Of a DNA stretch of 64,000 nucleotides, positions 8,518 to 63,204 are shown piece after piece. This DNA comes from Bradyrhizobium sp. WSM471 (GTDB lineage Bacteria > Pseudomonadota > Alphaproteobacteria > Rhizobiales > Xanthobacteraceae): assembly GCF_000244915.1 (NCBI RefSeq), contig NZ_CM001442.1:3906001-3970000 (forward strand), given 5' to 3'. Under the pieces are notes generated by a model. That model made no database searches and was not told the DNA's origin. It saw only the letters and a list, made by a program, of their open reading frames with translations. A program made the position numbers and the translations under genes. Each line of letters starts with the position of its first letter. Within the stretch, counting starts at the first letter, position 1.

Positions 8518-8827
8518 GGTGATCTCCTCAAATCTGTCGGCGCGGGGCTATCGCGTCGATGGAAAGGCCGCCGAAACGGTCCGCCTCGGGCAGAGGCTTT
8601 GGTTTCGATGGACCTGAGGTTATCCGAACGAGGCTGAACCAAACCCTGACGAGGCCTTCAGATTGGGTTCATTTGGGTGAAATCGTTGTAATCCATCTTG
8701 GAATTCCGGCCCCTGGGCTGCGGCGAAGCGTCCCCGAGTCGGTTTTGGCGGTCGCTTGCCGTATTGCGAAGGCGCCGATATAAGCCCGGCAACTCCGAAC
8801 CACCGTTTTCTCTTCAAGGACAACATC
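8518..8827. other. Intergenic region between divergent genes
   Basis: About 310 bases separate the minus-strand secreted protein gene and ndk. It must hold both promoters. I see no convincing ORF, RNA gene or repeat; the ORFs crossing it lack protein-like composition. An AAGGA ribosome site for ndk lies at 8816-8820. Confidence 0.5.
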
Positions 8828-9250
8828 ATGGCCATCGAACGCACCTTCTCGATCATCAAGCCCGACGCCACCGCGCGTAACCTCACCGGTGCGGTTAACG
8901 CCGTGATCGAGAAGGCGGGCCTGCGTATCGTCGCGCAGAAGCGCATCCGCATGACCAAGGAACAGGCCGAGACCTTCTATGCGGTCCACAAGGCGCGCCC
9001 CTTCTTCGGTGAGCTCGTGGACTTCATGACGTCCGGCCCCGTGGTGGTCCAGGTGCTAGAAGGCGAGGGTGCCGTCTCCAAGTATCGCGACGTGATGGGC
9101 GCGACCGATCCGTCCAAGGCGGCTGACGGGACCATCCGCAAGCTCTACGCAAAGTCGATCGGCGAGAACTCCGCGCACGGTTCGGATGCGCCGGAAACCG
9201 CTGCGATCGAGATCGCGCAGTTCTTCTCGGGTAACGAGATCGTCGGCTGA
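8828..9250 (+). CDS. ndk: Nucleoside diphosphate kinase
   Basis: A 140-residue enzyme, the normal length, that transfers the gamma-phosphate from ATP to other (d)NDPs through a phospho-histidine. The start [14 protein letters not shown] carries the conserved Lys of the KPD motif, and the active-site His lies in NSAHGSD near residue 117, followed by [18 protein letters not shown] 8828 is seven bases after AAGGA. It is probably monocistronic; the next gene starts 44 bases downstream on the same strand and may be co-transcribed. Confidence 0.97.
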
Positions 9251-9294
9251 TCCGTCAGCCGATCAGGTAACGAGACGCGGCGAAAGGACGTAGT

Positions 9295-10155
9295 GTGAAC
9301 TGGCTCTGGCAGATCTTCGATCCCGCTACGATCGGGGCATTCTTCACCCAGTTCCGCGTTGAGATGGCCGAACCGACTTTCTGGGTCGCGGTCGGCAAGA
9401 TCATCTGGATCAACATCCTCTTGTCCGGCGACAATGCGCTGGTGATTGCGCTCGCCTGCCGCGGCCTCAAGCCGCGGCATCGGCTGTGGGGCATGATCCT
9501 GGGTGCCGGCGCCGCGGTGCTGCTGCGGATCATCTTCACGGGCATCGTCGCGAGCCTGATGGAGCTGCCGTACCTCAAGCTGGTCGGCGGTCTTGCGCTG
9601 ATCGTGATTGCGGCAAAGCTGCTGGTGCCGGAACAGGAGGACGAGGACGGCGTCGAGTCGGCCTCGCATCTGTGGCAGGCCGTGCAGATCGTCGTCGTCG
9701 CCGACATCGTCATGAGCCTGGACAACGTCATTGCGGTGGCCGCGGCCGCCAATGGCAGCGCGCCCTTGCTGGTGCTCGGTCTTGCCATCAGCGTGCCCTT
9801 GATCGTCGCCGGCGCGGCGCTGATCATGGCGCTGCTCGCAAGGCTGCCGGTGCTGGTGTGGGCCGGCGCGGCGCTGCTCGGCTGGATCGCGGGCGAAGTG
9901 ATCGCGACCGATCCCGGCATCGCGCCGAGGCTGCACACGCTGTTCGACGGTCCGTTCGGCGCCTCGCTGGACAACATGCTCGGCGCCTTGCGCATCCCAC
10001 CGCAATTCGCGCATGGCGGCGGAGGCGGCGAATATCTCTGCGCAGCTCTCGGCGTCGTCGTCGTGCTGGCCGTCGGCTACATCTGGCGCCGGCGGAGCAT
10101 GAGCGCGGCCGCGCTGGAGTCGTCCGAACGCCACGCCAAGGCCTCGGCGGAATAG
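9295..10155 (+). CDS. TerC/YjbE-family integral membrane protein
   Basis: A 286-residue polytopic membrane protein with about seven hydrophobic segments. The family signature acidic pairs are present twice in a repeat arrangement: SGDNALVIALA near residue 43 and SLDNVIAVAA near residue 141. TerC-family members such as Alx and MeeF export Mn2+ or protect secreted proteins from metal stress, and the paired Asp-Asn motifs are thought to bind the ion. Here, length and motifs fit the YjbE/YkoY subgroup rather than true tellurite resistance TerC. It begins with GTG, with AAAGGA ten bases upstream. The RND efflux genes beyond it are on the other strand and convergent. Confidence 0.85.
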   Translation: MNWLWQIFDPATIGAFFTQFRVEMAEPTFWVAVGKIIWINILLSGDNALVIALACRGLKPRHRLWGMILGAGAAVLLRIIFTGIVASLMELPYLKLVGGLALIVIAAKLLVPEQEDEDGVESASHLWQAVQIVVVADIVMSLDNVIAVAAAANGSAPLLVLGLAISVPLIVAGAALIMALLARLPVLVWAGAALLGWIAGEVIATDPGIAPRLHTLFDGPFGASLDNMLGALRIPPQFAHGGGGGEYLCAALGVVVVLAVGYIWRRRSMSAAALESSERHAKASAE

Positions 10156-10161
10156 GCTGCT

Positions 10162-10473
10162 TCAGTCGATCGCGCCGAACTCCGTCACGGGCGTCGTCCA
10201 GTAGACGATCTTGGCTCCGGCGAACGGAACTCGCAGTCGGTCGAGCAAGCGGCCAGCATCGCTCCTCGCCATGATGATCTGCACGATGGCCTGATCGGCG
10301 TTGCCCTTCACGCGTTCGGCCGCCGTGTGCAATCGGACTTCGGCGCCGTGACCAGCCCCGTGCAATGCGGTGAACCCCGAAACAAGATCGGTCTGCTCGG
10401 TAAGATAGTCGAACACCTCGTCGCAGAGTTGGCGAGACAAGACCAGCGTGAGGCAGACCGGTTGGTCGATCAT
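10162..10473 (-). CDS. DUF3240-family protein linked to RND efflux
   Basis: A 103-residue protein whose start codon overlaps the stop codon of the upstream efflux pump gene (TGATG), so the two are translationally coupled. It begins MIDQPVCLTLVLS and resembles the DUF3240 family, ferredoxin-like-fold proteins often found beside CzcA/CusA-type pumps. Their role is unknown; a PII-like regulatory fold has been suggested for such partners. No membrane segment or signal peptide is seen, so it should act in the cytosol. It is the last gene of the efflux operon. Confidence 0.7.
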   Translation of the reverse strand: MIDQPVCLTLVLSRQLCDEVFDYLTEQTDLVSGFTALHGAGHGAEVRLHTAAERVKGNADQAIVQIIMARSDAGRLLDRLRVPFAGAKIVYWTTPVTEFGAID

Positions 10474-13400
10474 CAGGTCACCTTCGGCGTCCCGCCATAG
10501 CGGCGATACAGGATCGGCAAGAGAATCAGAGTGAGCAGGGTGGACGACAGGAGCCCTCCGATCACGACAACGGCGAGCGGTCGCTGGACTTCGGATCCTG
10601 GACCGGAGGCAAACAGCAGCGGGATCAAGCCGAACGCCGTAATGCTCGCGGTCATCAGCACTGGCCGAAGCCTGCGCATGGCGCCTTCGACGACGATACG
10701 ATCCTCGCTCAGGCCGCGGGCCCGCAGCTGATTGAAATGAGAGACCAAGACAACGCCATTAAGAACGGCGATGCCGAGCAGCGCGATGAAGCCGACGGAG
10801 GCTGGCACTGAAAGATATTCGCCCGTCAGAACCAGTGCGAAGACGCCCCCGATCAGGGCAAAGGGAATGTTGACGAGGACCAGCAAGGCCTGTCGTATGG
10901 CGCCGAATGTGGTGAAGAGCAGCAGGAAGATCAGACCGATCGCAACCGGCACCACGACGGACAGACGTGCGGCGGCACGTTGCTGGTTCTCGAATTGCCC
11001 GCCCCAGGTCAGCCGGTAGCCTTCCGGGAGCGGGAGTTCGGCGGCTTTCTGGCGCGCCGCTTCGACGAAGCCCACCATGTCGCGGCCCCGGACGTTGGCG
11101 CGGACCACGCTCATCCGCGAGCCGTCTTCGCGGTCGATTTTCACGGGGCCGTCCACTCGTTGGATTCGGGCGACCTGCGACAGCGCCACATGCTGTCCGG
11201 AAGCGAGCGTCATTGGCAGGCTCGCCAACAGCGTCGGCGTCTCCCTGGTCGACTTGCTCCCGCGGATGAGGATCGGCGTGCGGCGTCCCCCCTCAAGCGC
11301 GGTCCCGATCGTTCGGCCCTCGATTTGCGTGCGGAGTGAGTTCGCTATGGAGTCCACCGTCAGGCCGAGGCGACCGGTCTCCATTCGATTGACGGCCACC
11401 GTGTAATATTCAGCGCCTTCGTTGAGCGTGGTGTAGACGTCCTCGGCACCGTCTATGCCGGACAGGATGCCCGACAGCTTTGCCGCGATTTCGTTCAGTC
11501 TGCCGATGTCGGGGCCGAAGATCTTCACTGCGACGTCGCCGCGCACGCCGCTGATCATCTCCTGCACGCGCATGTCGATCGGTTGGGTGAAGCTGAGCGA
11601 GATACCGGGAAAGCCGTTCAGAACCTCACGAAGCTTCTGCAGCAGGGTCTCGCGACTGTCGGTCTGTCTCTCGGCGGCCGGCTTGAGCACGAGGAACGTG
11701 TCGGTCTGGTTGGGGCCCATGGGATCGAGGCCGAGCTCGTCCGACCCGGTCCGTGCGACGATACCGGCAATATCCGGTACGGCCAGAAGTGCGGTCTGGA
11801 GCCTTGCATTTATAGCCAATGACTCGTCGAGGTTGACGGAAGGAAGCGTCTCTACACTGACGATGATGTCGCCTTCGTCCATCGTCGGCATGAAGGTCTT
11901 GCCGAGCTTTGAATAACCGAAGCCCGCAGCGAGCAGGCCGATCAGCGCTGCAGCAATCACCTTGCGCTCGTTGTCCAAGGCCCAGTCCAGCGCCGGTGCG
12001 TAGATCCGCTGTGCCGCACGAATCAGCAGGGGATCGCGATGTGACGCGGACTTCAGCAGATAGGAGGTTGCGACCGGGATCACGGTCAGCGCCAGCAGCA
12101 ATGAGCTGGCGAGCGCGAAAATGATTGCCAGTGCGACTGGGATGAATAGCTTCCCTTCCAATCCCTGCAGGGTCAGCAGTGGTACGAACACGATCATGAT
12201 GATGAGGACGCCCGAGGCGACGGGTTCCAGGACTTCGCAAACCGACCGGTACACCAGGTGGATCAGCGGAGTCGCCTTGCTCGGTTCGTGCTTGCCGAGG
12301 TTGCCGACGATGTTCTCGACAACGACAACCAGCGCGTCGATCAACATGCCGATCGCGATCGCAAGTCCACCCAGGCTCATCAGGTTGGCCGACATTCCCA
12401 CGACGCGCATGACGATGAGCGCCATGAGAATGGCCAGCGGCAGGCTGAGAGCGATCACCAGCGAGGCGCGCCAGTTGCCGAGGAAAAGCAGCAGAAGAAC
12501 GATGACGAGGACGGTGGCCTCGCCGAGCGCCCGAATCACCGTGCCCACCGCGCGGTTGACCAAGCGGCTGCGGTCATAAAACACGTTGATCGAAACGCTC
12601 TTCGGCAGCGAGGGCTGCAGCTCGGCAAGTCGGGCACGTACGTCTCGGACGAGCTGCCCCGCATTGGCGCCGCGCAAGCCGAGGACCAGCCCCTCGACGG
12701 TTTCGCCGTGCCCGTCCGACGTAACTGCGCCATAGCGGGTCAGCGTCCCGACCCGGACGTTCGCGACGTCCTTGACCAGGATCGGCACTCCCTCGCGCGC
12801 GTCAACGACTATGGCCTTGATATCCTCTGTCGACCGGATGCTGCCTTCAACCCGAACCAAGGTGCTGTCCTCGCCCTGGTTCACCCGTCCGGCGCCATCG
12901 TTGCGACTGTTGGCTTCGATCGCCCGACGGAACAGGTCATACGATATGCCGCGGGCGGCAAGTGCATCGCTGCGCGGCACGATCTCGAAGGCGCGCACAT
13001 AACCGCCGAGCGCATTGACGTCGGCAACACCGGCGACAGTACGCAGGGCGGGACGGATCACCCAATCGAGCAGGCCCCGGCGTTCGGCGAGCGAGAGTTC
13101 GGGACTATCGATCGTGAACATGAACATTTCGCCCAGGGGACTCGTGATCGGCGCAAGACCGCCGCTCACCCCGTCAGGGAAATCACGCGAGATGCTCGAT
13201 AGTCGTTCCGACACCTGGTTGCGCGCCCAGTAGATGTCAGTGCCGTCTTCGAAATCGACGGTGATATCAGCCAATGCATACTTTGTGGTTGAACGAAGGA
13301 CTCTCTTCTTAGGCAATCCAAGCAGTTCAAGCTCGATAGGGACCGTGATGCGCTGCTCGACCTCTTCGGGGGTGAGGCCCGCCGCCTTCATGATGATCTT

Positions 13401-25856: not shown

Positions 25857-26234
25857 CCTCAGTCTCCTCCGCTAGATACAAAAACGACGCGGCCGCTTTT
25901 CGCGTGCCACGCCACAAACGGGCTTCCGGTAGTCTGTTCGAGTCTTGAGTCTCAATGTCGCGAAACGCACAGTCGAGCGGCCAATTCCGATTGTGTCGGA
26001 TATTGCAACATGAAAATCGCCCGTTAGCAAGCCGCGCGCGAATTTCAAGAGCCCGACCGGAGTACCCGACCGCAATTTGCGACCTGTGGCCGCGGAACCA
26101 CAATCGGAAGCAATGCCTTTGCCTGGACGCGCCAGCCGGTTGACCCTCAGTAACAGTTCGGCACAAATCGCGGCACGCGTGCGCCGCTCCTGTTGCATTT
26201 TTGGGCGCCGCCCTTTGCTTCGGGATTTGTCGCC
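25857..26234. other. Gene-free stretch between cspA and the outer membrane protein gene
   Basis: About 378 bases hold the divergent promoters and probably the cspA leader. The short ORFs here lack protein-like composition. I see no repeat or RNA gene. Confidence 0.4.
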
Positions 26235-27383
26235 ATGTGCTGCATTTCGCAGCCCTCAGAGACACGGCAGGCGATCAGGCTGAACCGCGTCCGTTGGATC
26301 GCGGCTGCCGTGGCGTTTGCGCTCATTGTGGTACTCTCGACGACATCAGGCTTTGCGCAAAGTCCGACGCCCACGCCGACCCCGACTCCCACGCCGTCAC
26401 CGACGCCGATTCCGATGCCGACAGCGACCAATTACGACCAGTCGGCCGGCAACAGCGCGCTCAATCTCGGCTCGAATTTCCTGGAGCGGCTCGGCAACCA
26501 GGCATCTGGCGGCATCAACCGGGCGTTTCGGACCAATCCCGGCGGCGGCGGCGCATCGGCGGGCGCAGAAGATCCGCGCTACCGCACCTGGTTCGAGGGC
26601 TACGGCATCTCGGTCCGGACAGATGCGCAAGGAGACTTTGTCGGCGACAAGCGCAAGACGTTTGGCGGTGTCGCAGGCTTCGGCGCGCGGCTCGCGCCGG
26701 GTGTCAATCTCGGCTTCTCCGTCGACCAGAGCCACACCGACATCGACGTGCCGCTCGCACTTCAGTCTGCGACGCTGGACCTGACGCAACTCGGCTTCAG
26801 CGGCTCCGTCGACAAGGGCCCATGGACCTGGGCTTTCGCCCTGGTGCACGGCTTCGGCAAGGTCCGCTCGAGCCGGGATACGGGTCTGGGACTTGCGACC
26901 GCGGGTTATCGCGCCGCAGTCGACGGCGCCCTGACCGAGATCAGTTATTACTGGACCAAGGACCAAATGCGCGTCGTACCGAAGGGCGCACTGGAATATG
27001 TCCGCGCCACCAGCGTCGCGTTCCAGGAGGTTGGCGGCCTCGATCCACTCAATGTCGGCTCGACGGCGCTCTCGCGCGGGCGGGTCATGATCGGAGCCGA
27101 GATCGGGCGCTACTTCATCTTCGACCAGAAGATCCTGGACCTGTCCGCCTATGGCAAGTTCGTCGACAATTTCCATCAGAACCTGGGATCGGTGCAGGTC
27201 AGCCTCGGGACCCAGAGCATCGTCGTGCCCGGCATCGGCGAGAGCCGCTACGGCATGGATGCCGGCGCCTCGGCCTCGCTCAGCCTGACCAACACGGCGC
27301 GGCTCTACGTCAATTACGACGGCAAGTTCCGCAACGAGCTGACGTCGCACCAGGGCACGGTCGGCTTCGAACATCGGTGGTGA
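26235..27383 (+). CDS. Autotransporter-type outer membrane beta-barrel protein without passenger
   Basis: A 382-residue protein with an N-terminal signal peptide (hydrophobic IAAAVAFALIVVLSTTSGFAQ) and a low-complexity Pro-Thr spacer (PTPTPTPTPSPTPIPMPT) at about residues 45-65. The rest, about 300 residues, alternates in short beta strands. It includes YRTWFEGYGISV, a start common in autotransporter barrels, and ends VGFEHRW with a terminal aromatic residue, the BAM recognition pattern. There is no large passenger domain, so it may act as a simple porin-like barrel or expose only its spacer. The start is taken at ATG 26235; an ATG at 26193 is possible. Specific function is unknown. Confidence 0.75.
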   Translation: MCCISQPSETRQAIRLNRVRWIAAAVAFALIVVLSTTSGFAQSPTPTPTPTPTPSPTPIPMPTATNYDQSAGNSALNLGSNFLERLGNQASGGINRAFRTNPGGGGASAGAEDPRYRTWFEGYGISVRTDAQGDFVGDKRKTFGGVAGFGARLAPGVNLGFSVDQSHTDIDVPLALQSATLDLTQLGFSGSVDKGPWTWAFALVHGFGKVRSSRDTGLGLATAGYRAAVDGALTEISYYWTKDQMRVVPKGALEYVRATSVAFQEVGGLDPLNVGSTALSRGRVMIGAEIGRYFIFDQKILDLSAYGKFVDNFHQNLGSVQVSLGTQSIVVPGIGESRYGMDAGASASLSLTNTARLYVNYDGKFRNELTSHQGTVGFEHRW

Positions 27384-27462: not shown

Positions 27463-28443
27463 TTAAGTCGGCATTGCCGCGACATATCCCGTCAATCCAA
27501 AACCCTCGCGCGCGGCCGTCATCATCGGCGCCAGCGCGTTCGGGTGGATGAATTCGTCGCGGAAACAGGGATGGATCTTGGGGTCGAAGATTTTCTTCAG
27601 CCAATCGACCACGATCTTGTGGCGCTCGGAGGCGCGGAATTCCTTGTGATAGGTGAGCCAGAGATCGGCGTGGTGGCTGACGCCGAGATCGACGGCAACA
27701 AGCGGGGCGCCGAGCGCGATCGAAACCGTCGGCAGGAATCCGATGCCGGCGCCGCGCTCCACCGCATAGAGCACGCCGACCGAGGAATTGGTCTTGATCC
27801 CGACGATGCCCTCGAGCGACTCAAGTCCGAGCACGCGGGCATAAGCGCCGTCGTCGACCTGCGGGGCGCTCTGCTTGATGATGCGGTGGTTCTTCAGCTC
27901 GGCCAGGCTCGCCGGCACGCCGTAGAGGTTTTCGTACTCCTTGGACACGAAGGGATAGATGTGCAGCCGGCCGAGCTTGGCGACGATCAGATCGGGATTG
28001 GTCGGCGGCTCGAGCTGGATCGCGATATCGGATTCGAGCCGCGCGACGTCGGCCTGTTCCATCGCGCAGCGCAGGTCGACGGTGATCTTGCGATAGGTCT
28101 TCTGGAAGTCGATCAGTCGCGGCAGGATCCAGAAATTGCCGGGGCCTTCCGTCACCGCGACGCGCACGGTGCCTGACATATCGTTCGACGATCGCGAAGC
28201 ACGCCGGAACACGTTGAAGGCATGACGCTCCATGTGCGCGACGTCGGCGATCATCGCGCTGCCTTCGTCGCTGAGCGTGAGCCCGCTCTGGTCGCGCAGG
28301 AACAGCTTGCAGTCGATGCTCTCTTCGAGCCGGTCGATCCTGCGCATCAGGGTGGTGGAGGTGAGCCCGAGCTCCTCGGCGGCGTTGCGGAAACTTTTAT
28401 ATTTTGCGCAAGCTAAAAACAGTTTCAAATCGTCCCAGGACAT
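27463..28443 (-). CDS. LysR-family transcriptional regulator
   Basis: A protein of about 326 residues. It starts MSWDDLKLFLACAKYKSFRNAAEELGLTSTTLMRRIDRLEE (helix-turn-helix, residues 1-60), followed by the LysR effector-binding domain with a two-lobed periplasmic-binding fold. It is divergent from the GNAT/isochorismatase cluster and is the natural candidate to regulate it. I favour ATG 28443 (GAAGAAG upstream). ATG 28470 would add nine residues but sits within the loop of a perfect 8-bp hairpin. An inverted repeat that could be its operator lies at 28487-28502. Confidence 0.88.
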   Translation of the reverse strand: MSWDDLKLFLACAKYKSFRNAAEELGLTSTTLMRRIDRLEESIDCKLFLRDQSGLTLSDEGSAMIADVAHMERHAFNVFRRASRSSNDMSGTVRVAVTEGPGNFWILPRLIDFQKTYRKITVDLRCAMEQADVARLESDIAIQLEPPTNPDLIVAKLGRLHIYPFVSKEYENLYGVPASLAELKNHRIIKQSAPQVDDGAYARVLGLESLEGIVGIKTNSSVGVLYAVERGAGIGFLPTVSIALGAPLVAVDLGVSHHADLWLTYHKEFRASERHKIVVDWLKKIFDPKIHPCFRDEFIHPNALAPMMTAAREGFGLTGYVAAMPT

Positions 28444-28460
28444 ATCCAGGGCTTCTTCAC

Positions 28461-28482
28461 GGTGCTGCATCACCGCAGCACC
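28461..28482 (-). promoter_or_regulatory. Hairpin in the LysR gene leader
   Basis: GGTGCTGC and GCAGCACC are perfectly complementary over 8 bases around a 6-base loop. The alternative LysR start codon (28468-28470) lies at the stem/loop junction, and the favoured start is 18 bases downstream of the stem. It could control translation. Confidence 0.5.
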
Positions 28483-28486
28483 CCGG

Positions 28487-28502
28487 TGCAATAACTGTTG
28501 CA
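28487..28502. promoter_or_regulatory. Inverted repeat in the divergent LysR/GNAT promoter region
   Basis: TGCAA-TAACTG-TTGCA is a perfect 5-6-5 dyad located between the divergent LysR and GNAT-like genes, where LysR regulators normally bind. Binding is inferred from position and symmetry only. Confidence 0.5.
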
Positions 28503-28574
28503 TACGCCTGATCCCCAGCCGCTAAGCTCTTGGTCATAGCGGGGCACGAAAGCCGCAAACGATAGAGGGGTGAC

Positions 28575-29192
28575 ATGGGTATGGAAAGGGGCTCGTTTGC
28601 CGCAAGGCATGATTTCGACGCGCTGCCGCTCAGTCCGGATGTCGACGTACGTCGCGCCCAATTTTCCGAAATCGCCGCGCTTTCGCAGCTGGCGCACCGG
28701 CTGGTGCCGGGCGTTCGGATCGGGGCGACTGAGCTTGCAAAATATTTCGCCTACGATCCCGAGAGCATCCTGACTTTCAGCCGGAAGGGCAACCTCGTCG
28801 GGGGCATGGCTTTCCTGTTTCTCAACGATCGCGGGCATGATGCGCTGCTGCTCGACGAGATCTGCCTCACCGCGCCGGAGACGCGCCATCTCGCGTCCGC
28901 GAAGGAGGACGTTTCCGCCATCTACATCTGGGCGATCGCTGCGACGGGGCGCGGCGTCGCCGGTCTCGGCAAGGCCGCGGCTCATCTGAGACAGCTAAGG
29001 TTTCGCAACGCGGATTGCTATGCGCAGCCGTCAACCGTGGCCGGCCGCGACATCATGAAGGCGACAGGCTTCGAGCCTGTTCCAAGCTTCCAACCCGACC
29101 TGTGGTGCTACGAGCGGCCCTGGCATCGGCAGCCGATGCGCATGCCGGGCGCGATCATTCAAGCAAGGAGTTTTGCAGATGCACGGTACTAG
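28575..29192 (+). CDS. GNAT-like acyltransferase, unknown substrate
   Basis: A 205-residue protein I could not assign to a named family. The central part fits the GNAT fold: SILTFSRKGNLVGGMAFLFLN then DALLLDEICLTAP, followed by GRGVAGLGKAAAHLRQLRF as a possible acyl-CoA pyrophosphate-binding loop and MKATGFEPVP as the typical end of GNAT motif B. The N-terminus (VRRAQFSEIAALSQLAHRL) also starts like a GNAT. It is the first gene of the cluster divergent from the LysR regulator, has GAGGGG six bases before ATG 28575, and overlaps the next GNAT gene by 14 bases. The substrate is unknown. Confidence 0.65.
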   Translation: MGMERGSFAARHDFDALPLSPDVDVRRAQFSEIAALSQLAHRLVPGVRIGATELAKYFAYDPESILTFSRKGNLVGGMAFLFLNDRGHDALLLDEICLTAPETRHLASAKEDVSAIYIWAIAATGRGVAGLGKAAAHLRQLRFRNADCYAQPSTVAGRDIMKATGFEPVPSFQPDLWCYERPWHRQPMRMPGAIIQARSFADARY

Positions 29193-29799
29193 GATTCCGC
29201 TCGCGAAGCCCGATTCCCGCGCCATCACCATTCGCCTCGCGCGCGATCTCAGCGATCTCATGCTGGTCACCTCGATCCGCTCAGCCGTCTATCTCGCCGA
29301 GCAGGATTGCCCGTTCGATGAGGAGTTCGACGGCAACGACATGGTCGCCGCGCATTTCATCGGCTATGTCGGCAACGAGCCTGCGGGCTGTCTGCGGGTG
29401 CGGTTCTTCGGCGATTTCGCCAAGGTGGAACGGCTTGCGGTGCGGCACCAATATCGGCGCTCGCGTGTCTCGTTCAAGCTGGTACAAGCGAGCGTCGACT
29501 ATGTGAAGCGCAAGGGCTTTCGCAAGATTTACGGCCAGGCGCAGGACCGCCTGGTCGATTTCTGGGCCCATTTCGGCGCCAAGCCGCTTGGTCACAATCG
29601 CAAGATCACCTTTTCCGACTTCTCCTACACGGAAATGCTGCTGGAGATCGAACCGGGCCCGGATGCCATTACGCTGGACAGCGATCCGTACGTGATCATC
29701 CGCCCCGAGGGCGATTGGGACCGGCCGGGCGTGCTCGACGCCTCGGCAGGACGGGCCGTGACGTCGCCGCTGCGGGACGTCGCGCTCGCTGGCCGTTGA
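29179..29799 (+). CDS. GNAT-family acyltransferase with altered CoA loop
   Basis: A 206-residue protein of the GNAT fold. It has the early segment ITIRLARDLSDLMLVTSIRSAVYLAEQ, then strands NEPAGCLRVRFF and AKVERLAVRHQYRRS, a helix with LVQASVDYVKRKG, and GQAQDRLVDFWAHFGAKPL. The usual (Q/R)xxGx(G/A) acetyl-CoA loop reads QYRRSRVS without Gly. An acidic PFDEEFDGND stretch recalls the acyl-homoserine-lactone synthase/FeeM branch of the superfamily. ATG 29179 has AAGGAG nine bases upstream and overlaps the preceding gene by 14 bases. It is the second gene of the LysR-linked cluster. Function unknown. Confidence 0.75.
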   Translation: MHGTRIPLAKPDSRAITIRLARDLSDLMLVTSIRSAVYLAEQDCPFDEEFDGNDMVAAHFIGYVGNEPAGCLRVRFFGDFAKVERLAVRHQYRRSRVSFKLVQASVDYVKRKGFRKIYGQAQDRLVDFWAHFGAKPLGHNRKITFSDFSYTEMLLEIEPGPDAITLDSDPYVIIRPEGDWDRPGVLDASAGRAVTSPLRDVALAGR

Positions 29800-29824
29800 A
29801 ACTGGTGCAGCTGCGCGCAAAACC

Positions 29825-30388
29825 ATGCTGGTTTCCATCACCGACGATCCGCCGATCCTGGTCTGCGCGGATCTCCAGGTCGAATACCTGACCCCCGGAC
29901 GTCGCCACGTCATCCTCGACGGCGATGCCGCGACCGCGCGCTGCGTGGAACTGCTGACGTTCTGGCGCGACAATCTCTGGCCGGTGATGCATCTGAAGCG
30001 CATCGCGCAGGCGGCCTGGTTCAATCCGGCATCCAAGCTGACCGATTGGATCGCGGAGGCGAAGCCGCGGCCGGGAGAGATGACGTTCGAGCACCCGCTG
30101 CCGTCGGCCTATAGTTCGGCGCGTTTTGTGGACTACATGTCCAATATCCGCAATGTCCGTTGCGTGCTCGCGGGCTTTTCCCTGGACGAAACTGTCCTGG
30201 CCACCGCTATCGACGGGTTTCACCGCAGTCATCGCTACCAGGTGGTGGCCGACGCCGTCGCCTGCCGGCAGCCGGGAACTGGCGATGCCGCCGCCTACAA
30301 GCATGCGGTAGTGAATGTGATCGGGAATTTTGCTACAATCCAGTCCAGCGCCGAACTGATCAGAACCAGCGGCGCCGTTGCGGTGTAG
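29825..30388 (+). CDS. Isochorismatase-fold protein lacking the catalytic Lys and Cys
   Basis: A 187-residue protein with the cysteine-hydrolase (isochorismatase-like) alpha/beta core. Asp16 lies in LVCADLQVEYL, the usual first catalytic residue. The catalytic Lys expected four residues before the SAY/SAF motif is His90, and the nucleophilic Cys position in VLAGFSLDETVLATAI is Thr123. The hydrolase triad Asp/Lys/Cys is therefore Asp/His/Thr and the protein is probably not a normal hydrolase. It could have become a binding or regulatory protein. It starts 25 bases after the GNAT gene on the same strand and is likely co-transcribed with it. Confidence 0.75.
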   Translation: MLVSITDDPPILVCADLQVEYLTPGRRHVILDGDAATARCVELLTFWRDNLWPVMHLKRIAQAAWFNPASKLTDWIAEAKPRPGEMTFEHPLPSAYSSARFVDYMSNIRNVRCVLAGFSLDETVLATAIDGFHRSHRYQVVADAVACRQPGTGDAAAYKHAVVNVIGNFATIQSSAELIRTSGAVAV

Positions 30389-30418
30389 GCGGCCGCAATC
30401 GACGGATGGAGTGGGACA

Positions 30419-30589
30419 TTGTCACGGGGAGATCAGCTCGAGGAGCTGGCAAGCGACCTGTCGCGTGCCGCCGAGGCGGCGCGCCGTCTTGGTCTGCCCA
30501 CGACGGTGTATCTGCTCTCGATGGCGCTGGTGGAGGTGCGGGAAGCCGCCGCCGCCGACAGCGACGGGAATGACGACGGCGCGGCGTGA
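30419..30589 (+). CDS. Small hypothetical protein, TTG start
   Basis: A 56-residue ORF starting at TTG, with GGAG seven bases upstream, directly after the isochorismatase-like gene. The sequence is protein-like, with a helical amphipathic middle (DQLEELASDLSRAAEAARRLGL) and an acidic tail rich in Ala, Asp and Gly. No family is recognised. It is probably the last gene of the LysR-linked cluster. Other frames here are Arg/Gly-rich and less convincing. Confidence 0.55.
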   Translation: MSRGDQLEELASDLSRAAEAARRLGLPTTVYLLSMALVEVREAAAADSDGNDDGAA

Positions 30590-30747: not shown

Positions 30748-32130
30748 ATGTCCATGCTGCCCAATTCGCAAGAGGCCCGGGATGTGGCCTACCAGCTCCA
30801 TCCTTACACCAACGCGCGCGCCCATCAGCAGGCCGGTCCCCTGGTGATCGAACGCGGCGAGGGCCCTTACGTGTTCGACGCCTCGGGCAAGCGCTATTTC
30901 GAGGCGATGGCAGGCCTGTGGAGCGTCGGGCTCGGCTTCAACGAGAAGCGGCTGGTCGAGGCTGCGCACAAGCAGATGCAGGCGCTGCCGTTCTATCACA
31001 CGTTCTCCGCCAAATCGCACGGGCCCTCGATCGATCTTGCCGAGAAGCTGGTCGCGCTCGCGCCTGTTACGATGAGCAAGGTGTTCTTCACCAATTCCGG
31101 CTCGGAGGCCAACGACACCGTTCTGAAGTTGATTGCCTATCGCTCCAACGCGCTCGGCCAGCCACAGCGCAAGAAGGTGATCAGCCGGATGCGCGCCTAT
31201 CACGGCGTCACCATCGCGTCCGCCAGCCTCACCGGCCTGCCGAACAACCACCGCTCTTTCGACTTGCCGCTCCCGAACATCCTGCACACGGGCTCACCGC
31301 ATTTCTACAAGGACGGCGCGCCCGGGGAGAGCGAGGAAGCCTTCGCAACGCGGCGAGCCGAGGAGCTCGATGCGCTGATCCAGAAGGAAGGCCCGGACAC
31401 GATCGCGGCGTTCTTCGGTGAGCCGGTGATGGGCGCAGGCGGCGTCATCGTGCCGCCGGCGACCTATTGGGACAAGATCCAGAAGGTTTTGAACAAGTAC
31501 GACATCCTGTTGGTCGCCGACGAGGTCATCTGCGGCTTCGGCCGCACCGGCAAGATGTTCGGCTGCGAAACCTACGGCATCAAGCCCGACGCGATCGTGG
31601 TCTCAAAGCAGATCACCTCGAGCTATTTTCCGCTGTCGGCCATCATGATGAACGCTCGCATGTTCGAGCCGATCGCCGATGAGAGCAACAAGATCGGCGT
31701 GCTCGGCCACGGCTTCACCGCGGGTGGCCATCCGGTCGGATCGGCGATTGCGCTGGAGAATCTGAAAATCATCGAGGAGCGGGGCCTGGTTGCGCACGCC
31801 GCCGAGCTCGGTGGCTACATGCAAGGCAAGCTGCGTGAACTCACCAGCCATCCGCTGGTCGGCGAGGTCCGCGGTGTCGGCATGATCGCTGCGATCGAAC
31901 TTGTGCTGGACAAGGCGCGCAAAACCGCGGCGGCAACGCCGGGCGCCGTCGGCGGCATGGCCAGCCGCATGCTGCAGGAACGCGGCGTGATCTCGCGCAA
32001 CATGCTCGACGCCATCGCCATCTGCCCGCCGCTGATCGTCACCAAGGCCCAGATCGACGAACTGGTCGCGGCGATTTCAGGTGTGTTGGACGACATGAAG
32101 CCGGAAGTGGCGAAGCTGACGCCGGCGTAG
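30748..32130 (+). CDS. Class III PLP-dependent aminotransferase
   Basis: A 460-residue enzyme of the omega-amino acid/putrescine:pyruvate aminotransferase group. It carries the subclass pattern FTNSGSEANDTVLKLI for PLP phosphate binding, VADEVICGFGRTGKMFG with the Asp that contacts the PLP pyridine N, and the Schiff-base Lys in VVSKQITSSYFPLSA. Near the N-terminus are YVFDASGKRYFEAMAGLW and a conserved active-site region YHTFSAKSHGP. It should transfer amino groups from a terminal amine (GABA, beta-alanine, putrescine or taurine type) to pyruvate or a keto acid; the substrate cannot be fixed here. ATG 30748 has AAGGA nine bases upstream. It may or may not belong to the preceding cluster (158-base gap). 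Confidence 0.9.
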   Translation: MSMLPNSQEARDVAYQLHPYTNARAHQQAGPLVIERGEGPYVFDASGKRYFEAMAGLWSVGLGFNEKRLVEAAHKQMQALPFYHTFSAKSHGPSIDLAEKLVALAPVTMSKVFFTNSGSEANDTVLKLIAYRSNALGQPQRKKVISRMRAYHGVTIASASLTGLPNNHRSFDLPLPNILHTGSPHFYKDGAPGESEEAFATRRAEELDALIQKEGPDTIAAFFGEPVMGAGGVIVPPATYWDKIQKVLNKYDILLVADEVICGFGRTGKMFGCETYGIKPDAIVVSKQITSSYFPLSAIMMNARMFEPIADESNKIGVLGHGFTAGGHPVGSAIALENLKIIEERGLVAHAAELGGYMQGKLRELTSHPLVGEVRGVGMIAAIELVLDKARKTAAATPGAVGGMASRMLQERGVISRNMLDAIAICPPLIVTKAQIDELVAAISGVLDDMKPEVAKLTPA

Positions 32131-32264: not shown

Positions 32265-33416
32265 CTATTCCGCCCGCTGAACCCCGATCACGCGGCCTTT
32301 CTCGACCGCCAGCGCCAGCTCGCCGCGCTTCAGTTTCAGGGCGGCCTCGCCGAACAGCTCGCGGCGCCAGCCGCGTAGCGCCGGCACGTCGGCCTCGTCG
32401 TCGGCCGCGATCTCCTCGAGATCGTCGACGGTCGCAATCACCTTGCTGGCGACCGCATGGCGCTCCGCGGTCATGCGCAGCAGCACCTTCAACAGCTCGA
32501 CGATCGCGGCGCCATTGTTGTTGTTGCGCGGCTTTTCCAGCTTCGGCAGCGTGGCGTGATCGCGCGCCAGCCCGCGCTCGACGGCGGCGACGATGTCGGC
32601 GCCCCATTTGGATTTCTCAAAACCCTTCGGCACCGAGCGCAGGTTTGCGAGCTTCTCGATCGTATTCGGCGCGTGGGTTGCGATGTCGCTGACGGCCTCG
32701 TCGCGCAGCACGCGGCCGCGCGGCACATCGCGGCTCTGCGCCTCCTGCTCGCGCCAGGCGGCGACCTCCATCAGGACCGCGAGGTCCTTGGGCTTGCGCA
32801 CCCGCGTCTTGAGCCGTTCCCAGGCGCGCTCGGGGTGGAAGTCGTAGGTCTTGGGCGAGGTCAGGACCTCCATCTCGATCGAGACCCATTCGCTGCGCCG
32901 GCGCTTCTTGAGGTCGGCATCGAGCGCTGCGAACACGTCGCGCAGATGCGTGACGTCGGACACGGCGTAATGCATCTGCTCCTTGGTCAGCGGCCGGCGC
33001 GACCAATCGGTGAAGCGGTGGGTTTTGTCCGGGCGGTGTCCGGTGACCTTCTCGACCAGCGCGTCGTAGGCGATGCTGTCGCCGTAGCCGAGCACCATGG
33101 CCGCGACCTGGGTGTCGAACACCGGGTGCGGAATGATGTTGGCCTGGTGCCAGATGATCTCGATGTCCTGGCGGGCGGCGTGGAAGACCTTCAGTACAGC
33201 CTCATTGGCCATCAGCTCGAAGAACGGCTTGAGGTCGATGCCCGCGGCCAGGGTGTCGATGACGATCGCTTCCTCGGCGCTGGCCATCTGCACCACGCAC
33301 AGCAGCGGGTAATAGGTGGTCTCGCGCAGGAACTCGGTATCGACGGTAATGACGGGGTGCTTGGCCAACCGGCTGCAGGCAGCCGCAAGGTCAGCGGTGG
33401 TGGTAATCAAATCCAT
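32265..33416 (-). CDS. rnd: Ribonuclease D
   Basis: A 383-residue 3'-5' exoribonuclease that trims tRNA and other RNA precursors. DEDDy motifs are seen: the Asp and Glu of VITVDTEFL, the third Asp in [12 protein letters not shown], and Tyr and Asp of [10 protein letters not shown]. An HRDC-type helical domain follows, with [20 protein letters not shown] as its recognisable core. The C-terminus is Lys-rich. ATG 33416 gives the normal N-terminus [10 protein letters not shown]. It follows a small membrane protein gene on the same strand. Confidence 0.93.
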
Positions 33417-62856: not shown

Positions 62857-63204
62857 ATGACCATCAGGAATGGGCTCTATCATATCCGCATCGAAATGTT
62901 GGATGCCGTCCAGGGCGGCAACCAGGGTGTCATGGTGATGCGCGACGGCAGCATGCGGGGAGGGGATTCGTTCTTCTTCGCCTACGGCAGCTACACCTCG
63001 GCCGACGGCAAGTGGAAGGGCGAGCTGACCAACGAGGAACATTCCCCTTCGTTCGACGAGCGCCCGGTGTGGGGCCGCAAGGTCGTGACCATCGGCTTCA
63101 GCGGTACCTATAATGACGAGACCGCGTACGGCGAGGGCATCGCGCTCGCCGGCAAACGGAGCATCCGTTTCAAAGGCAATCTCCGGCTCCTGGTGCCGGA
63201 TTGA
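62857..63204 (+). CDS. GrlR-family small regulatory-type protein
   Basis: A 115-residue beta-rich protein: GLYHIRIEMLDA, VMVMRDGSMRGGDSFFFAYGSYTS and VTIGFSGTYND with GIALAGKRSIRFKGNLRLL at the end. This resembles GrlR, the type III secretion regulator of enteropathogens, whose fold is lipocalin-like and binds GrlA. No type III secretion genes are in this window, so it is probably a general homologue of unknown role. Its stop and the convergent SDR stop are directly adjacent (TGA|TTA). Confidence 0.75.
   Translation: MTIRNGLYHIRIEMLDAVQGGNQGVMVMRDGSMRGGDSFFFAYGSYTSADGKWKGELTNEEHSPSFDERPVWGRKVVTIGFSGTYNDETAYGEGIALAGKRSIRFKGNLRLLVPD

Follow-up and report, generated by a model that had tools for sequence, protein, structure and literature searches.

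A LysR-linked gene cluster in Bradyrhizobium with a probable split tandem GNAT and a Cys-less isochorismatase-fold protein

FeeM and the acyl-homoserine lactone (AHL) synthases have a GNAT fold. Other GNAT proteins, SACOL1063 and AbHpa2, acetylate amino acids (PMC10267138). Among proteins of the isochorismatase fold, CrcA binds Crc and has Ser in place of Cys (PMC10213629), and EntB and YecD carry Gly at the Cys position (PMC12553813). Here we describe a locus of Bradyrhizobium sp. WSM471 that brings these folds together (contig NZ_CM001442.1, positions 3,906,001 to 3,970,000; this stretch of 64,000 nucleotides is the window, and coordinates below are window coordinates). A gene for a LysR-type regulator, on the minus strand, is divergent from four tightly packed plus-strand genes, which encode two GNAT-like proteins (GNAT1 and GNAT2, the latter resembling SACOL1063), an isochorismatase-fold protein (ISO) and a protein of 56 amino acids. 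The 14-base overlap and the 25- and 30-base gaps between the four, read from the DNA in a first-pass annotation, were correct when re-measured.

We tentatively read the locus as a LysR-controlled accessory metabolic module in which a split tandem GNAT would acylate a small amine, with ISO as a partner, and we hold this reading to be a serious possibility, short of probable. What the data show directly is that the genes keep their order, occur together and are fused in relatives; they also show predicted folds, a conserved promoter repeat and selection. Each part falls into a known family or fold, and it is the combination of a split or fused double GNAT, LysR and ISO that, to our knowledge, is an undescribed variant. 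The first-pass annotation knew of no described system of this composition, and a literature word search, judged by titles and abstract openings and with most subscription journals outside its coverage, likewise yielded none for the combination.

Conservation was followed in the best 80 of 248 confirmed loci (the named loci, nearly all titled Bradyrhizobium and closely related to one another), in 40 further picked loci (fused, split and GNAT2-only forms, other genera included), and in a survey of 60 genomes comprising the source genome, 35 others of the genus and 24 from other families. The genes for LysR, GNAT1, GNAT2, ISO and an upstream outer-membrane-like protein (OMP) are each present in all 80 named loci, in identical order and strands, with LysR divergent from GNAT1 and a 14-nucleotide GNAT1/GNAT2 overlap every time; the small gene is kept in 79. 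The window GNAT2 has copies of 100% identity in B. canariense BTA-1 and three other named Bradyrhizobium loci. Among the 40 picked loci, LysR and the GNATs are convergent in L067 and L068 and divergent in the remaining 38. One locus titled Frankia sp. RB7 (L135, JAUEPE010000062.1) is of the Bradyrhizobium type, with a GNAT2 96% identical, and looks misnamed or contaminated.

The survey shows where the cluster is missing. GNAT1 has a match in 26 of the 60 genomes (the source, 23 of the 35 of the same genus and 2 of the 24 from other families), and the gene lies at this very locus in 22 of the 35; in the same-genus genome G012 the match is part of a fused protein elsewhere in the genome. We examined 16 clusterless genomes of the genus, G012 included, and only G012 has a GNAT2 match. 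The border OMP gene is present in 12 of them and absent from G003, G004, G010 and G035, where the site is hence not judgeable. At all 12 sites, searched over 10.5 to 12 kb at E 1e-3, no LysR, GNAT1, GNAT2, ISO, small gene or downstream aminotransferase gene was found. In 10 of the 12, OMP adjoins a homologue of the window gene at 32265-33416; in the other two (L240 and L243) other genes lie between them. The five genes are thus jointly present or jointly absent at the site and come and go together, and the OMP gene (26193-27383) marks the border of the island.

GNAT1 (28575..29192, plus strand, 205 amino acids) has no Pfam or NCBIfam match and no match to PDB sequences under E 0.6; structure prediction and comparison give it a GNAT fold. 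Its homologues are mostly annotated as hypothetical proteins, some as N-acetyltransferase domain-containing. GNAT2 (29179..29799, plus strand, 206 amino acids) passes the Pfam Acetyltransf_1 cut-off (37.1 versus 20.7 bits) and matches solved YjcF/ElaA/SACOL1063 members significantly in sequence and in fold, the fold being taken from the same domain of a fused homologue. Both proteins are thus GNAT-like, as first annotated. In a profile search of PDB sequences, significant matches were confined to the GNAT2 part of the profile. GNAT1 and GNAT2 form one protein in 14 of the 40 picked loci; therefore they probably act together, and we regard them as probably a tandem GNAT split over two genes. 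The double GNAT, accompanied by a LysR gene of its own, is spread over families of the window's order; in further families of the class it is mainly GNAT2 alone that occurs. Matches to the fused protein at E 1e-20 were found in 21 of 385 genomes of the class, the source genome and G021 included, and in G469 most of that protein is matched (25-390 of 393).

ISO (29825..30388, plus strand) passes the Isochorismatase domain cut-off (PF00857, 5.6e-17, 62.8 versus 27 bits), and the closest solved chains by sequence are CrcA (8cib, 2.3e-8) and 4h17 (4.5e-8). The claim that it has Asp, His and Thr instead of the Asp-Lys-Cys triad was borne out: D16, H90, E122 and T123 are invariant among the 80 close copies of full length, of which 79 come from named loci and one is the window's own, with Thr where a close homologue might have kept the Cys. 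Nor was a complete canonical triad found in any of 25 further loci aligned with the window ISO at the canonical columns. The Cys column in most distant loci is N, A, S or T, with a Cys one residue later in 12. That distant copies keep the catalytic Cys was considered and rejected by the alignment, the Cys being one residue off except in L204 and L208, which have it at the canonical column but carry E or G at the Asp position. ISO offers an example of an isochorismatase fold that exchanged its active-site triad and has since conserved the replacement.

The LysR gene (27463..28443, product starting MSWDDLKLF) is clear in its assignment (HTH_1 1.2e-16, 60.8 versus a cut-off of 26.6 bits; LysR_substrate 4.7e-25, 88.6 versus 28 bits). 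The divergent promoter is 127-137 bases long in the 80 loci and the window, and is highly conserved. It holds an inverted repeat, GGTGCTGC-N6-GCAGCACC (28461..28482), whose core TGCTGC-N6-GCAGCA is exact in 75 of the 80 named loci and has one mismatch in the other five. We take this operator-like repeat as a putative LysR operator. Shuffled promoters gave an equally strong repeat in 25 of 2,000 cases, so the evidence is its conservation and not the repeat by itself. The 20-bp form GTGCTGC-N6-GCAGCAC is single copy in the 7.78-Mb single-contig genome (0 in the backwards-read control). Outside the named set, the repeat is exact in L075 and L095, which already displayed it in the promoter inspection after which the motif was defined; it has one mismatch in L070 and is weaker, with two to three mismatches, in L059, L065, L073 and L085. 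In most loci of other genera the repeat is weaker or not evident, and most fused loci, like most loci of other orders, show no evident repeat in the promoters inspected. A second site resembling TGCTGC-N6-GCAGCA, with at most one mismatch, lies at window position 62936.

The 56-amino-acid protein (30419..30589, plus strand), confirmed at the expected spacing with its acidic tail, has a TTG start and no Pfam or NCBIfam match, and it looks helical by eye. In the 79 named loci that keep it, it is 54-59 amino acids long, with whole-codon length differences and a TTG start in 77 (GTG in 2), and its ratio of nonsynonymous to synonymous substitution rates (dN/dS) is 0.22. No second copy was found in the genome, the next match having E 0.4 and stops. 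With a profile of close copies, a related open reading frame (ORF) was found outside the genus directly after the fused GNAT of L061 (E 5e-4), which is the only such locus related below E 0.01; iteration alone brings in L071 (0.22) and two ORFs near L072 (0.83 and 5.3), with the best reversed-sequence control at E 2.1. Some small ORF follows the operon in many distant loci, for which we claim no relatedness, and Pfam gave only sub-cut-off matches on ten small ORFs.

How might such a module work? LysR would bind the inverted repeat and, with a small effector, switch the operon. GNAT1 and GNAT2 would be the two halves of what is one tandem-GNAT protein in other Alphaproteobacteria, a pairing to which the gene fusion points. 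To judge from relatives, GNAT2 would be the catalytic half and would acylate, most likely acetylate, an amino acid or comparable small amine at its amino group; GNAT1 may shape or regulate the site of GNAT2. ISO could be a Cys-less, dispensable partner that binds protein or has altered hydrolase activity, and the 56-amino-acid protein may be a further small partner. The first-pass annotation had suggested a signalling or N-acyl metabolite; the amine N-acylation part of that idea survives as our favored inference, and the AHL-synthase/FeeM kinship behind it is marginal.

Several observations weigh against this proposal. GNAT2 falls below the curated cut-off of the ElaA equivalog NF007644 (30.5 versus 171 bits) and is therefore labelled ElaA-like, not an ElaA. 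Its coenzyme A (CoA) loop, YRRSRVSF in the window, lacks the R/Q-x-x-G-x-G/A pattern and departs from the R form in 58 of 62 aligned rows, window included, which agrees with the loop having been called unusual; acetyl-CoA use is thus not assured. With its Acetyltransf_1 match and its deviant loop, GNAT2 counts as a protein of the GNAT fold and not as a proven acetyl-CoA enzyme. The predicted model of the fused protein has a predicted template modeling score (pTM) of only 0.68, which leaves the packing of its halves uncertain. In 3 of the 40 picked loci GNAT2 is present with no GNAT1 detected, class-wide matches to the fused protein other than that in G469 cover the GNAT2 part, and the dN/dS of GNAT1 is not below that of the neighboring OMP gene. 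Among the annotated neighbors in relatives are ABC transporter genes of the peptide or branched-chain type and a relative of ornithine cyclodeaminase; others, namely MlaD, a flavin mononucleotide (FMN) dehydrogenase, KaiC and BenE, show no amino-acid theme. A minority of neighbors is annotated, and the lists are rough, as the ORF caller misses or mis-starts genes (no core was called in L064, L087, L090 and L206).

The alternative that survives best, though we consider it unlikely, is a pathway of catabolism or salvage: ISO would be an active hydrolase whose site has been rebuilt to Asp/His/Thr, and the GNATs would do no more than detoxify or store what it produces. ISO is under purifying selection with its constant triad, and it was detected in 23 of the 40 picked loci (one broken, one degenerate); the Cys-less EntB is itself an isochorismatase (PMC12553813). 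However, the ISO of L143, alone among the named loci, is broken while LysR and both GNATs remain intact. The degenerate copy, in L073, has lost all three triad residues, and Asn replaces Asp in the same-genus locus L081. Beside 12 of the 14 fused GNATs no ISO was detected with the window ISO as query, a search that divergent copies may escape.

It is tempting to take the odd CoA loop and the acidic stretch of GNAT2, both shared with FeeM and AHL synthases, as signs of an N-acyl signal made by the pair, possibly out of acyl-acyl carrier protein, for which LysR would be the receptor. A fused relative matches an exosortase acyltransferase at E 0.004, and a FeeM domain is precomputed on P0104, one among the 120 fused relatives listed. 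The FeeM match of GNAT2 itself is marginal, however (PF21926, E 0.02, 15.1 versus a cut-off of 27 bits), and no AHL-synthase model is among its Pfam and NCBIfam matches. ElaA/YjcF-type proteins match better in both sequence and fold. The resemblance proposed in the first-pass annotation was therefore rejected as the primary interpretation, and signal synthesis of this kind seems improbable to us. We would put about the same low weight on a protein-modifying or toxin-antitoxin-like system, in which the GNATs would acetylate a protein or tRNA while the small protein would serve as target or antidote. GNAT toxins exist, and a small conserved protein does sit in the operon, with a relative beside the fused GNAT of L061; but a LysR regulator is unusual for toxin-antitoxin pairs, the defence library PADLOC gave no match, and few of the loci with retained GNATs yielded a relative of the small protein. 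No better placed is a bolder version of the N-acylation idea, in which a heteromeric split acyltransferase without a normal CoA loop in use would make an N-acyl amino compound; this compound would act directly as effector for the dedicated LysR, and ISO and the small protein would be regulators at the protein level. Such a closed, self-tuning metabolite circuit is not known to have been described. Least likely of all is a decarboxylase role for GNAT1, of the CurA/SxtA/GphF kind, in which it would prepare the acyl donor for GNAT2; against it, serotonin acetyltransferase (13.8) comes level within one Z unit.

Beyond the module, a class-III aminotransferase gene (30748..32130, plus strand; NF004767, 6e-240) follows the small gene. 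It is present in 77 of the 80 named loci and lies less than 250 nucleotides from the small gene in 70 of the 76 measured; in the other six (range L097-L176) about 4.1 kb separates them. In L079-L082 it was not detected in the 16-18 kb that surround the module, and it was rejected as a core part; it is probably outside the module. On the other side, OMP adjoins the LysR gene, has a Thr-Pro repeat near its start, and matches an autotransporter model weakly, far under the cut-off. Rfam gave no match at gathering score. In seven (L203, L204, L208, L210, L211, L212 and L221) of 20 stretches taken from the class-wide matches, a gene of one cluster, c14, precedes the GNAT2 relative in the place of GNAT1. 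Three of the seven c14 proteins were tested (L210, L204 and L208) and have a low-score likeness to NadD-type nucleotidyltransferases, with an N-terminal part that is hydrophobic by eye. A divergent LysR was called in all of these loci but L203, and ISO follows GNAT2 in L203, L204 and L208. In L066, a gene tested as a KaiC-type ATPase (8795-10486) and small ORFs lie beside the fused module's LysR, and L092 and L094, of the same family as L066, have a gene of the same cluster as this ATPase.

The gene group is found in many soil bacteria, yet the first half of the double GNAT belongs to no Pfam or NCBIfam family. With a gene fusion, an all-or-none gene island and a conserved promoter repeat, the partner, the regulator and the substrate of N-acylation by the proposed module are directly testable. 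Compared with the solved YjcF, ElaA and SACOL1063 chains (PDB 1q2y, 5z6n and 5jph; 140-153 amino acids), GNAT2 is longer, at 206, and differs from them in a C-terminal tail conserved around IIRPEG, an altered CoA loop and a second GNAT as partner. GNAT1 is 12-15% identical to the SxtA, CurA and GphF decarboxylases, level with acetyltransferases, and is a separate protein of 205 amino acids. ISO shares with CrcA (PA1677) and 4h17 a nucleophile column without Cys. CrcA has Lys and Ser (PMC10213629) where ISO has His and Thr, and ISO sits in a GNAT operon.
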